DNA of 10,494 bases from Candidatus Aenigmatarchaeota archaeon. Its GTDB lineage: Archaea > Aenigmatarchaeota > Aenigmatarchaeia > Aenigmatarchaeales > SZUA-1535. A program made the position numbers and the translations under genes. A model generated the notes under the pieces. That model was given only the letters and a program-made list of their open reading frames with translations, had not been told where the DNA came from and did no database searches. The stretch spans positions 1 to 10,494 of the forward strand of contig JALSPV010000080.1 of NCBI GenBank assembly GCA_026985775.1, in the 5' to 3' direction. Shown in pieces: positions 4,742 through 10,070 of the stretch (the stretch's first letter is position 1; every line of letters starts with the position of its first letter).

Positions 4742-5341
4742 ATGAGAAAGTTTTGTTATAAGTGCGGAAAGATTACTGAAGAGCTATATGATGGTCTTTG
4801 TAGGGAGTGTGCAAAAGGTATAGGTAGTGTTGAAAAGCCTATTATAGAAATTTTCATTTGCTCCGAGTGCGGAAAAATTAAAGAGGGTAAACTCTGGAAA
4901 CAAACAAGCATAGAAGCTTTTGTTAGAAGAAAACTGAGAGCGAAAAAAGTTGACATTAAAAAATGTACTGCGGTAATGCAAGATGGGGGAACGGTAGAAT
5001 TCGAGGTGAAAACAAAGTATATGCTCTGCGATACCTGTGTTAAAATACTCTCTGGGTATCATGCAAGCGTTCTTCAACTTCGCGGATTCAGCGAAAGCGA
5101 AATTGCTAAAATTCTATCGTGCACAGAAAACCTCGGGAAGGATTTCTTTATAGAAGAAACAAAACACGGTATAGATGTAAAGTTTATTGAAAAACCAGCA
5201 GCAGAAAAAGTTGCGAGAAAAATAAAGAGAATGTTTAAAAAAGTGAAAATCATAAAATCATGTAAACTCATAACTGTTAAAGATGGGAAACGCGTATATA
5301 GAAATTTCCTCTCGGTGAGGAAGCTTGAAGAAAAGGAATGA
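4742..5341 (+). CDS. Nmd3-family 60S/50S export-factor homologue
   Basis: Archaeal Nmd3-family proteins resemble the N-terminal zinc-binding part of eukaryotic Nmd3, the adaptor that binds late pre-60S subunits; the archaeal role is taken to be large-subunit assembly or quality control. The 199-aa product opens MRKFCYKCGK and has zinc pairs at Cys5/Cys8, Cys20/Cys23 and Cys40/Cys43, with a further CDTC in the YMLCDTCVKI segment. The middle (YHASVLQLRG) and the C-terminal ferredoxin-like region ending YRNFLSVRKLEEKE fit the family. An open frame extends upstream to 4583, but that part is antisense to the ferredoxin; ATG 4742 lies 27 bp from the TATA and begins right before the first zinc pair. 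The 3' end overlaps the aIF1A start by 17 bases. Confidence 0.85.
   Translation: MRKFCYKCGKITEELYDGLCRECAKGIGSVEKPIIEIFICSECGKIKEGKLWKQTSIEAFVRRKLRAKKVDIKKCTAVMQDGGTVEFEVKTKYMLCDTCVKILSGYHASVLQLRGFSESEIAKILSCTENLGKDFFIEETKHGIDVKFIEKPAAEKVARKIKRMFKKVKIIKSCKLITVKDGKRVYRNFLSVRKLEEKE
5314..5320 (+). promoter_or_regulatory. Shine-Dalgarno site that decides the aIF1A TTG start
   Basis: GGTGAGG within the end of nmd3 has its GGTGA core six bases before TTG 5325. An ATG at 5338 is out of frame, so the SD supports TTG as the aIF1A start. Confidence 0.6.
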
Positions 5342-5648
5342 GCTTAGTCCGGAGGAAGAGATTGCAAGAACGAGAATTCCAAACAAGGAAGAGGGCGAGC
5401 TGCTAGCTGTAGTAACAGAAATGCTTGGAGAAGGAAGAATGCGAGTGGAATGCGAGGATGGAAAGGTTAGAATAGGAAGAGTTATAGGAAAATTAAGAAA
5501 AAGAGTCTGGATAAGAGTTGGTAATCTTGTATTAGTTAAACCCTGGGTTGTTGAAGGGGATAGGAAGTGCGATATAATTCACCGATATACCCCAACACAG
5601 GCAAACTGGCTGAAGAAAAAAGGTTATGCACAGAATCTGGAGTTTTGA
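5325..5648 (+). CDS. eif1A: Translation initiation factor aIF1A
   Basis: aIF1A is the archaeal counterpart of eIF1A/IF1: it binds the A site of the small subunit and helps aIF1 and aIF2 place initiator tRNA. The 107-aa product has the basic N-terminal tail (MKKRNELSPEEEIARTRIPN) and the OB-fold with EMLGEGRMRVECEDGKVRIG, GKLRKRVWIRVGNLVLVKPW and DIIHRYTPTQANWLKKKG, all diagnostic. It starts with TTG, supported by the SD at 5314-5320 and by the normal N-terminal length. It overlaps nmd3 by 17 bases, so the two are co-transcribed. It ends ten bases short of the convergent elp3 stop. aIF1A here and aIF1 at 7387 are the two factors that tune start-codon selection, and both genes lack an ATG start. 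Confidence 0.95.
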   Translation: MKKRNELSPEEEIARTRIPNKEEGELLAVVTEMLGEGRMRVECEDGKVRIGRVIGKLRKRVWIRVGNLVLVKPWVVEGDRKCDIIHRYTPTQANWLKKKGYAQNLEF

Positions 5649-7180: not shown

Positions 7181-7390
7181 ATGGCTATACTGAGAAAAAG
7201 TGAAATAAAGAAAATGGGTGAAGAAGAACTTAGAAAAAAGCTAGATGAATTTAGAGTTGAAATAATGAAGCTTAATGCTCAACGTTATGTAGGGGGGAGC
7301 ATAAATCCAGGCAGGCTTAGGGAACTTAGAAGAACAGTTGCAAGAATACTCACGGAGCTCAACCTCCGTGCTGGAGGTGAAAGGAAATAG
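7181..7390 (+). CDS. rpl29: Ribosomal protein uL29
   Basis: uL29 is a small helical-hairpin protein near the nascent-chain exit of the large subunit, where it helps dock exit-site factors. The 69-aa product shows the two-helix pattern and archaeal signature: MAILRKSEIKKMGEEELRKK, then LNAQRYVGGSINPGRLRELR and TVARILTELNLR. Length is normal. ATG 7181 has the SD GGGGTG (7168-7173). Its TAG stop (7388-7390) overlaps the proposed ATA start of aIF1 in the string ATAG, and the end of its coding sequence contains the SD for aIF1. The genes usually found upstream in archaea (uS3, uL22) are replaced here by the divergent elp3. Confidence 0.95.
   Translation: MAILRKSEIKKMGEEELRKKLDEFRVEIMKLNAQRYVGGSINPGRLRELRRTVARILTELNLRAGGERK
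7373..7380 (+). promoter_or_regulatory. Near-perfect Shine-Dalgarno site for aIF1
   Basis: GGAGGTGA is the strongest SD in the window. Exactly six bases follow before ATA 7387, in frame with aIF1. The SD contains an in-frame TGA (7378-7380), which rules out a start further upstream. Confidence 0.75.
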
Positions 7391-7692
7391 AAGTATGTAA
7401 GCGCTGTGGTTTACCAAAAGAGCTTTGCATTTGTGAAGCAATAGAAAAAGAGACAGCAAAAATAAAAATATACCTTGAAAAGAAAAGGTACGGAAAGAAC
7501 ATGACAATAATCGAGGGTATTTCCAAGGACATGAATCCTAAAGAAATCCTGCGTAAACTCAAGAAAAAACTTGCGTGTGGAGGAACATACAAGAACGGTA
7601 GACTTGAACTGCAGGGAGACCATAGAGAAAAGATCAAAAAACTCCTTCAGGAGTTTGGGTTTACGGAAGAGCAAATTGAAGTGATAATTTAA
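7387..7692 (+). CDS. Translation initiation factor aIF1 (SUI1 family), probable ATA start
   Basis: aIF1, the archaeal eIF1, binds near the P site of the small subunit and rejects initiation at wrong codons. Read from 7387, the 101-aa product has the archaeal N-terminal zinc motif CKRCGLPKELCIC (residues 4-16), the linker IKIYLEKKRYGKNMTIIEG, and the SUI1 core KLACGGTYKNGRLELQGDH ending EEQIEVII, over the normal length. Between the in-frame TGA at 7378-7380 and ATG 7501 there is no ATG, GTG or TTG, and starting at 7501 would remove 38 residues including the zinc motif. ATA 7387 lies six bases after GGAGGTGA and overlaps the uL29 stop as ATAG. The ATA start is inferred from the sequence; a sequencing error is the main alternative. 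Rpp29 follows with a one-base overlap. Confidence 0.9.
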   Translation: MEVCKRCGLPKELCICEAIEKETAKIKIYLEKKRYGKNMTIIEGISKDMNPKEILRKLKKKLACGGTYKNGRLELQGDHREKIKKLLQEFGFTEEQIEVII

Positions 7693-7973
7693 TGATTATA
7701 CCTAAAAACATAATCCACCACGAACTAATAGGTTTGGAAGTTGAAGTAATTGAAGCAAAAACAAAAACACAGAAAGGTATAAAAGGTTTGGTGGTAAATG
7801 AAACAAAGCATATGCTGTGGATAGAAACGCAAAAAAGCGTGAAAAAAATCCCGAAAAAATGCACAAAATTCCTCTTCGCCCTTCCAGACGGAAAAAAAGT
7901 AATCGTGAGTGGAGATGTACTTGTTGCAAGACCTGAAGAAAGAATAAAAACAAAATCAAAAAGGTGGTGGTAA
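7692..7973 (+). CDS. rnp1: RNase P protein component 1 (Rpp29/Pop4)
   Basis: Rpp29 is a protein subunit of archaeal RNase P, which removes 5' leaders from pre-tRNAs; it pairs with Rpp21 and acts on the specificity side of the RNA. The 93-aa product opens with NIIHHELIGLEVEVIEA and contains GIKGLVVNETKHMLWIET, the Sm-like barrel core, then KKCTKFLFALPDGKKVIVSG and a basic C-terminus (KSKRWW). ATG 7692 overlaps the aIF1 TAA by one base (TAATG), with GTGAT six bases upstream as a modest SD. Position between aIF1 and uS17 is the classic archaeal order. A short Rpp21-like ORF lies at 10084 in this same window. Confidence 0.93.
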   Translation: MIIPKNIIHHELIGLEVEVIEAKTKTQKGIKGLVVNETKHMLWIETQKSVKKIPKKCTKFLFALPDGKKVIVSGDVLVARPEERIKTKSKRWW

Positions 7974-8317
7974 TGTCTGCTCGAAATATAGGAGTTCCTG
8001 CAAAACCGCCTGAAAAAGAATGCAACGATCCGAAGTGTCCATGGCACGGCACACTTCCTGTAAGGGGAAGAATGTTTGTTGGAAGAGTTGTTTCTGCAAA
8101 GACTCATAAAACAGCAATAGTGCAGTGGGATTACGTGCATTATGTCCCGAAGTTTGAAAGATATGAAAGGAGAAAAACAAAAGTCGCTGCGTACAATCCA
8201 GAATGCATTCATGCAAGAGAGGGAGATATAGTCAAGATAATGGAATGCAGACCTCTTTCAAAAACTAAATCTTTTGTGGTTATAGAGGTCTTGAAAAGGG
8301 CACATGAACAAAATTAA
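7973..8317 (+). CDS. rps17: Ribosomal protein uS17
   Basis: uS17 is a primary 16S rRNA-binding protein of the small subunit with an OB fold. The 114-aa product has the archaeal N-terminal extension with CNDPKCPWHGTLPVRGR, then FVGRVVSAKTHKTAIVQWDY, KFERYERRKTKVAAYNPECI and EGDIVKIMECRPLSKTKSF, all diagnostic. ATG 7973 overlaps the Rpp29 TAA by one base, with GGTGG just upstream; in-frame GTG codons at 7964 and 7967 lie inside that SD and are not the start. uL14, which usually follows, is absent; the operon ends here, 75 bases before the next promoter and gene. Confidence 0.95.
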   Translation: MSARNIGVPAKPPEKECNDPKCPWHGTLPVRGRMFVGRVVSAKTHKTAIVQWDYVHYVPKFERYERRKTKVAAYNPECIHAREGDIVKIMECRPLSKTKSFVVIEVLKRAHEQN

Positions 8318-9981: not shown

Positions 9982-10070
9982 GCGCCGGTAGTCTAGTGGT
10001 AGGATACCGGCCTCCCGAGCCGGTGACCCGGGTTCGAAAAGCTTGCTCAAATTTCCCGGCCGGCGCACCA
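9982..10070 (+). tRNA. tRNA-Gly (anticodon CCC) with a T-loop intron
   Basis: All four arms can be built: acceptor GCGCCGG/CCGGCGC, D-arm from 9991, anticodon stem CCGGC/GCCGG with loop CTCCCGA (anticodon CCC, 10014-10016, reading GGG), and T-stem CCGGG/CCCGG. The discriminator is A10067 and CCA is encoded (10068-10070). The T-loop is 22 nt instead of 7. Removing 15 nt (10039-10053) restores the canonical TTCGAAT. Acceptor, anticodon and T stems are all G-C pairs, which in an AT-rich genome suggests thermophily. A short ORF begins 14 bases after the CCA and is probably co-transcribed. Confidence 0.93.
10039..10053 (+). other. 15-nt tRNA intron at position 59/60 with a bulge-helix-bulge fold
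   Basis: The intron lies between T-loop bases 59 and 60. The precursor can fold as the substrate of the archaeal splicing endonuclease: outer helix = T-stem; central helix UUCG (10033-10036) against CAAA (10048-10051), three of four paired with one C-A mismatch; 5' bulge AA^A (10037-10039); inner helix AG/CU capped by a CUUG tetraloop (10040-10047); 3' bulge UU^U (10052-10054). Both bulges put the cuts exactly where a normal T-loop results. Confidence 0.8.

Follow-up and report, generated by a model that had tools for sequence, protein, structure and literature searches.

In the excerpts of the published literature on which this account draws, the bacterial infC gene, which encodes the start-codon discriminating factor IF3, starts at ATT in E. 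coli and at ATC in Streptomyces, and thereby forms a feedback loop (PMC5472188). The same source describes the Streptomyces gene sigR, whose GTC start is repressed by IF3. Eukaryotic eIF1 autoregulates through the poor context of its AUG (cited in PMC6237735), and the S. solfataricus aIF1 specifically destabilised the initiation complex on a non-AUG mRNA (PMC6237735). In terms of gene reading, the S. solfataricus aIF1 gene was annotated with a -1 frameshift interruption, while re-sequencing gave a full-length gene and two peptides were reported (PMC8211752); aIF1 is essential in Haloferax volcanii (PMC3828320). Among the matches listed from full-text literature, a body from which subscription papers and preprints are mostly absent, no title or abstract opening reports a non-AUG start or autoregulation of an archaeal aIF1.

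The aIF1 frame and its start

The window, i.e., the entire 10,494-nucleotide stretch of DNA analysed here, is contig C80 of a 629 kb Aenigmatarchaeota genome, which is assembled in 135 contigs and is 81% complete. The genes around aIF1 are arranged as uL29, aIF1, Rpp29, and uS17, and the features on which the argument depends are as follows.

5325-5648, plus strand: aIF1A, a second initiation factor with a TTG start, used as a control (PF01176, 67.6 bits)
7181-7390, plus strand: uL29 (rpl29; PF00831, 58 bits), whose stop TAG at 7388-7390 overlaps the ATA
7373-7380, plus strand: Shine-Dalgarno (SD) sequence GGAGGTGA of aIF1, the sole exact copy in the window, complementary to the 16S tail GGATCACCTCCT
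7378-7380, plus strand: in-frame TGA that closes the aIF1 frame upstream, by sequence reading, and is itself part of the SD
7387-7389, plus strand: ATA, the putative aIF1 initiation codon, at a place that is non-AUG in 31 of the 136 starts assigned across the class, window included
7387-7692, plus strand: aIF1 (SUI1 family), 101 codons plus TAA, by profile matches and alignment to 4mo0
7396-7434, plus strand: N-terminal zinc motif CxxCGLPxELCxC, whose C4, C7, C14, and C16 are invariant in 31 chosen sequences
7501-7503, plus strand: ATG, the first canonical codon of the aIF1 frame, rejected as the start given the loss of the zinc motif and the synonymous bias upstream
7692-7973, plus strand: Rpp29 (RNase P component 1) with an ATG start, a control gene (PF01868, 89.9 bits)
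7973-8317, plus strand: uS17 with an ATG start, a control gene (PF00366, 92.4 bits)

Beyond the TGA, the aIF1 frame reads AAG GAA ATA GAA GTA TGT..., and a reading of the frame confirmed the claim of an earlier note on this DNA that no ATG, GTG, or TTG stands between that TGA and ATG 7501. The overlap of ATA 7387 with the uL29 stop and the 6 nt that separate it from GGAGGTGA were likewise as described there. The note had also called this SD the best in the window, which holds in so far as there is no second exact copy (one found vs. 0.13 expected from shuffles) and fails in so far as GAGGTGAT at 175 ties with it at 8 nt. The 16S gene was not found in the assembly of the window genome; the tail GGATCACCTCCT was found in eight other genomes, six of the class and two of a second phylum.

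The identity of the protein is established by matches to PF01253 (74.1 bits, cut-off 25.5) and NF002096 (137.2 bits, cut-off 98); the IF3 family is absent from the matches of the Pfam and NCBIfam scans, in which SUI1-type families are listed instead. The window aIF1 carries the archaeal N-terminal CxxCG...CxC motif, the alignment in which its four cysteines are invariant consists of the window and 30 relatives, and the first cysteine pair is missing in 5 of the 146 aIF1 loci of the class. A start at 7501 would remove all four cysteines, as had been claimed. Within the genus, codons 2-38 (7390-7500) evolve as a protein-coding stretch, each pair of genomes differing by 13-18 synonymous vs. 4-7 nonsynonymous codon changes. 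With ATA 7387 taken as a Met codon, the protein has the N-terminus MEVCKRCGLPKELCICEAIEKE, whose second residue pairs in the alignment with residue 3 of the 4mo0 aIF1 chain; that chain we take to be the M. jannaschii protein. Thus, the ATA start sits where the family expects one.

Some further features of the window are recorded for completeness. An out-of-frame ATG TAA at 7395-7400 overlaps the Cys1 codon just past the ATA; such an AUG always arises where a TGY cysteine codon follows a codon ending in A. The inverted repeat ACCTCC/GGAGGT at 7362-7378 could hide the aIF1 SD until uL29 is translated. The corresponding hairpin (7362-7367 with 7373-7378) folds no better than shuffles (z -0.77), its ACCTCC arm is seen in neither of two genus relatives, and it was set aside. 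A weak tRNA-like match at 9982-10049 scores 26.9 bits (gathering score 29) and is not called by ARAGORN, and no Rfam family matched the window at gathering cut-offs.

Start codons across the class and in a second phylum

The class search covered 156 genomes, the same 156 being returned by a phylum-level query, and located aIF1 in 146. All 146 loci were read, with the candidate codons fixed in advance as ATG, GTG, TTG, ATA, ATC, ATT, and CTG, and a start was assigned in 136; of the other ten, five lack the first cysteine pair and five, with an extended N-terminus, offer no candidate within 7 codons. The assigned starts are ATG in 95, GTG in 5, TTG in 5, ATA in 13, ATC in 9, CTG in 8, and ATT in 1, so that the last four codons, termed non-AUG hereafter, account for 31 of 136 across 12 families. 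Since 105 of the 136 starts are ATG, GTG, or TTG and the trait is patchy, a non-AUG start is not required. All members are non-AUG in f1 (3/3, ATA), f9 (6/6, ATC), f18 (4/4), f19 (2/2), and f7 (2/2), as is the one member of each of the families f3, f4, f5, f25, and f26, while f2 (3/7) and f8 (6/19) are mixed. One locus (G057) was scored as GTG, at a spacing of 9, despite an ATC at a spacing of 6.

By a strict test, 20 of 144 aIF1 frames contain no ATG, GTG, or TTG before the zinc motif. Among the 31 non-AUG loci, 20 have no NTG at all from the upstream stop to Cys1; the in-frame NTGs of the remaining 11 fall within the SD or abut it, immediately precede Cys1, or stand farther upstream and lack an SD, and are unlikely as alternative starts, with the proviso that on sequence alone the ATG or GTG directly before Cys1 may be the aIF1 start in three of the genomes (G063, G078, and G124). 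The non-AUG start of aIF1 is a lineage-wide pattern. In the window's genus, where one relative (L032) has an aIF1 80% identical to that of the window, the codon is ATA in 3/3. The earlier note's proposal of an ATA start is strongly supported. The note had advised checking whether ATA or another non-AUG codon is conserved in relatives and had named ATG or GTG at this codon in close relatives as evidence against its proposal; ATG and GTG are absent from the genus, while the wider order, in which 11 of 16 starts are non-AUG, has them in 5/16.

The SD of these genes is set at a nearly fixed distance. The spacing is 6 nt in 22 of the 31 non-AUG starts, 5 in 5, and 7 in 2, with no exact SD in the last 2, and a spacing of 5-7 nt is observed in 29/31 vs. 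3/54 for ATG-started aIF1 genes whose SD is detectable, figures that are partly circular since the SD fit was weighed when choosing codons in mixed cases. A blind reading was therefore added, which takes the codon from the SD position alone, i.e., the single in-frame codon that begins 5-7 nt past the longest SD. It returned AUA, AUC, AUU, or CUG in 18 of the 20 strict loci vs. 4/72 among canonical loci that have an SD. The strict loci gave ATC in 8, ATA in 7, CTG in 2, ATT in 1, and AAA in 1, where a different short SD was picked, with no SD in 1. The median SD hybridisation energy is -11.8 kcal/mol for non-AUG aIF1 vs. -8.7 kcal/mol for the 95 ATG-started genes (Mann-Whitney p 7e-11, uncorrected for relatedness), 41 of which have a weak SD. 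Among the genes read in each genome, the strongest SD belongs to aIF1 in 26/31 non-AUG and 77/102 other genomes, and the energy gap between non-AUG and canonical aIF1 is small in the mixed families f8 and f2.

A tree of the relatives (IQ-TREE quick, LG+G4, 146 rows, 664 columns) requires 7 changes of the non-AUG label vs. a mean of 28.4 after shuffling, and 0 of 500 shuffles were as low. A clade of 14 genomes (SH-aLRT 99), with a total branch length of 4.0, is wholly non-AUG and has undergone at least four codon changes among ATA, ATC, and ATT and none to ATG. The window's order adjoins this clade, with a support of SH-aLRT 87 for the uniting branch, and its 16 starts consist of 8 CTG, 3 ATA, 4 ATG, and 1 GTG. 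Selection normally holds start codons at AUG (PMC5622118). As starts normally stay AUG, the persistence of a non-AUG codon whose identity drifts would point to selection at the aIF1 start for not being AUG.

The survey of aIF1 starts was extended to a second archaeal phylum, in which 145 genomes around that of a Thermoplasmata archaeon (G156, locus L033) yielded aIF1 in 139. The 70 loci read, i.e., the best 30 and 40 chosen ones, whose matches in almost every case extend to the zinc motif, start at ATG in 64, GTG in 4, CTG in 1, and ATA in 1. The CTG-started gene (G162) has a GTG only within its SD, and the ATA-started frame (G182) has no NTG at all. Non-AUG aIF1 starts are thus rare in the second phylum, where, judged from these sequences, they probably originated separately.

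The N-terminus of aIF1 varies in two further ways within the class. Two loci of family f15 (L119 and L120) have an N-terminal segment without the zinc cysteines (MVEIDPKTGLPKELGVWESL) in which the surrounding residues are kept, and four loci of family f22 (L111, L115, L118, and L131) carry an additional cysteine-bearing segment ahead of the usual zinc motif in the aIF1 frame.

A proposed feedback loop and competing explanations

The best explanation for these observations, to which we assign a probability of roughly 0.65, is that initiator Met-tRNA initiates at AUA 7387 with the help of a strong SD and that the level of aIF1 is sensed by its own mRNA in a feedback loop. The SD, at its fixed short spacing, would place the initiator Met-tRNA on AUA 7387, the use of Met-tRNA at AUA being presumed. 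At low aIF1 levels, the initiation complex held on AUA by the SD would persist and allow aIF1 synthesis; a surplus of aIF1 would lead to rejection of the complex and bring synthesis to a halt. The mRNA could act as a sensor of the aIF1 level because aIF1 rejects non-AUG initiation complexes. Taken together, the discrimination exerted by aIF1, the autoregulation of eIF1, and the infC loop imply that excess aIF1 should repress an aIF1 gene that has AUA and a strong SD, and it is by this analogy that we infer the closing of the loop in these archaea. A feedback of the IF3 type predicts the observed combination of AUA, AUC, AUU, or CUG with a strong SD in aIF1 and its absence from aIF1A and from the operon neighbours that were read.

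A possible, though doubtful, alternative is that the non-AUG codon only fixes aIF1 output at a constant low level, below that of the ribosomal proteins encoded alongside it in the operon, with no feedback. The position of aIF1 between uL29 and Rpp29/uS17 would accord with this reading, and it is established that a poor codon alone should reduce output. However, strong SDs accompany the non-AUG starts, which would be an odd way to reduce output, and GTG and TTG are used by aIF1 in other genomes. Moreover, the codon defined by the SD in 18 of the 20 strict loci is of the type that IF3-type proofreading rejects.

Loose start selection, with many non-AUG genes in these small-genomed archaea, is improbable in light of the control genes. 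The strict aIF1 rule was applied to the neighbour genes in all 146 loci, with 40 codons examined, and gave raw no-start rows in 0/143 for uL29, 0/122 for Rpp29, 1/104 for uS17, 0/99 for uL14, 0/66 for eS4, 1/124 for uS3, and 21/84 for uL24. Inspection of these 23 rows by eye revealed an ATG farther upstream than 40 codons for uS17 and a methionine just beyond the limit for uS3 and uL24. After this hand-check, 0 of 742 controls lack a start vs. 20/144 for aIF1, with the caveat that an unrelated NTG within 40 codons can mask a non-AUG start in controls and aIF1 alike. Within the 31 loci where aIF1 is non-AUG, an ATG start could be placed for uL29 in 30, Rpp29 in 29, and uS17 in 27. The other initiation factor, aIF1A, was read in 30 loci from the 56 genomes with a match and has NTG in 30/30, of which 14 come from genomes with non-AUG aIF1. 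The aIF1A of the window seems to be TTG-started (5325-5327), and that of its two genus relatives has ATG.

The same explanation draws some support from eS28 in family f19. In 400 kb of one genome (G037), a scan for non-AUG codons that follow an SD of at least 6 at a spacing of 5-7 and have no NTG upstream returned only five sites. These are aIF1, an ATC before eS28, an ATA followed six codons later by an NTG, an ATC whose frame has a coding score of 0.0, and a CTG that lies in a frame of 477 codons. The eS28 gene (L304:4853-5056, genus g29; PF01200, 78.9 bits) has its ATC directly after a TGA and behind GGTGATTTGA, in a frame without NTG. In the eS28 of G078 (L306), of the same genus, GTT stands at the place of that ATC and the sole GTG lies inside the SD. 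However, 30 non-AUG genomes yielded 27 eS28 loci, and of the 25 in which the gene could be placed 23 have ATG, the exceptions being G037 and G078. The gene may thus be a second one with a non-AUG start in f19, and the feature is perhaps not exclusive to aIF1; the claim of specificity, which otherwise accords with the controls and aIF1A, is weakened for that family.

Truncation, sequencing error, and frameshift are very unlikely causes of the missing start. Initiation at ATG 7501, the choice of any gene caller limited to ATG, GTG, and TTG, would yield a short aIF1 and leave the upstream part untranslated; the invariant zinc motif, the synonymous-biased differences, and the alignment to 4mo0 from residue 3 of the latter leave it very little room. 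An ATG or GTG miscalled as ATA through sequencing, assembly, or strain mixture is conceivable in so fragmented a metagenome assembly, and is scarcely credible when the codon is ATA throughout the genus and non-AUG at the homologous place in 31 genomes of 12 families. Equally remote is a frameshift or readthrough product of uL29, which shares 4 nt with aIF1 in the window; across the 31 loci with a non-AUG start, the position of the uL29 stop, located by profile, varies between 14 nt past the aIF1 start and 321 nt upstream of it, so that uL29 cannot provide a general route. A changed reading of AUA was set aside, as relatives have ATC, ATT, and CTG at the same place.

Comparison with known initiation-factor loops

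If the feedback reading is correct, archaea would gain a counterpart of the IF3 and eIF1 loops, unrelated proofreaders would have converged on the use of one codon class, and these genes would serve as natural reporters of the codons that archaeal ribosomes accept as starts. In genomes of this kind, gene callers limited to ATG, GTG, and TTG would shorten aIF1, an important initiation factor.

As far as the excerpted sources extend, infC and aIF1 are alike in that the gene of a start-codon discriminating factor itself starts at a codon which the factor rejects. They differ in the protein (IF3 vs. SUI1/aIF1) and in the archaeal ribosome and aIF2, and the feedback shown for infC is, for aIF1, drawn by analogy. 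With eukaryotic eIF1, aIF1 shares the SUI1 protein family and would share a feedback of the same sign; however, eIF1 uses an AUG in poor context, whereas aIF1 here has an altered codon with a strong SD and no in-frame AUG before 7501. Streptomyces sigR resembles aIF1 in that a non-canonical codon places a gene under the control of an initiation factor, although sigR is bacterial and is not the factor's own gene. The S. solfataricus aIF1 gene and that of the window are both odd in their reading, through a frameshift in the former and the start codon in the latter.

On balance, we lean towards a case of archaeal initiation-factor autoregulation, in which aIF1 would employ the device of IF3 (AUA, AUC, AUU, or CUG with a strong SD), long kept with a drifting non-AUG codon in one large lineage of Aenigmatarchaeota and with a separate origin elsewhere, so that all three domains would possess the loop, built on two unrelated proteins. 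Such a loop would combine the design of infC with a protein of the eIF1 family, i.e., a known design on a different protein.
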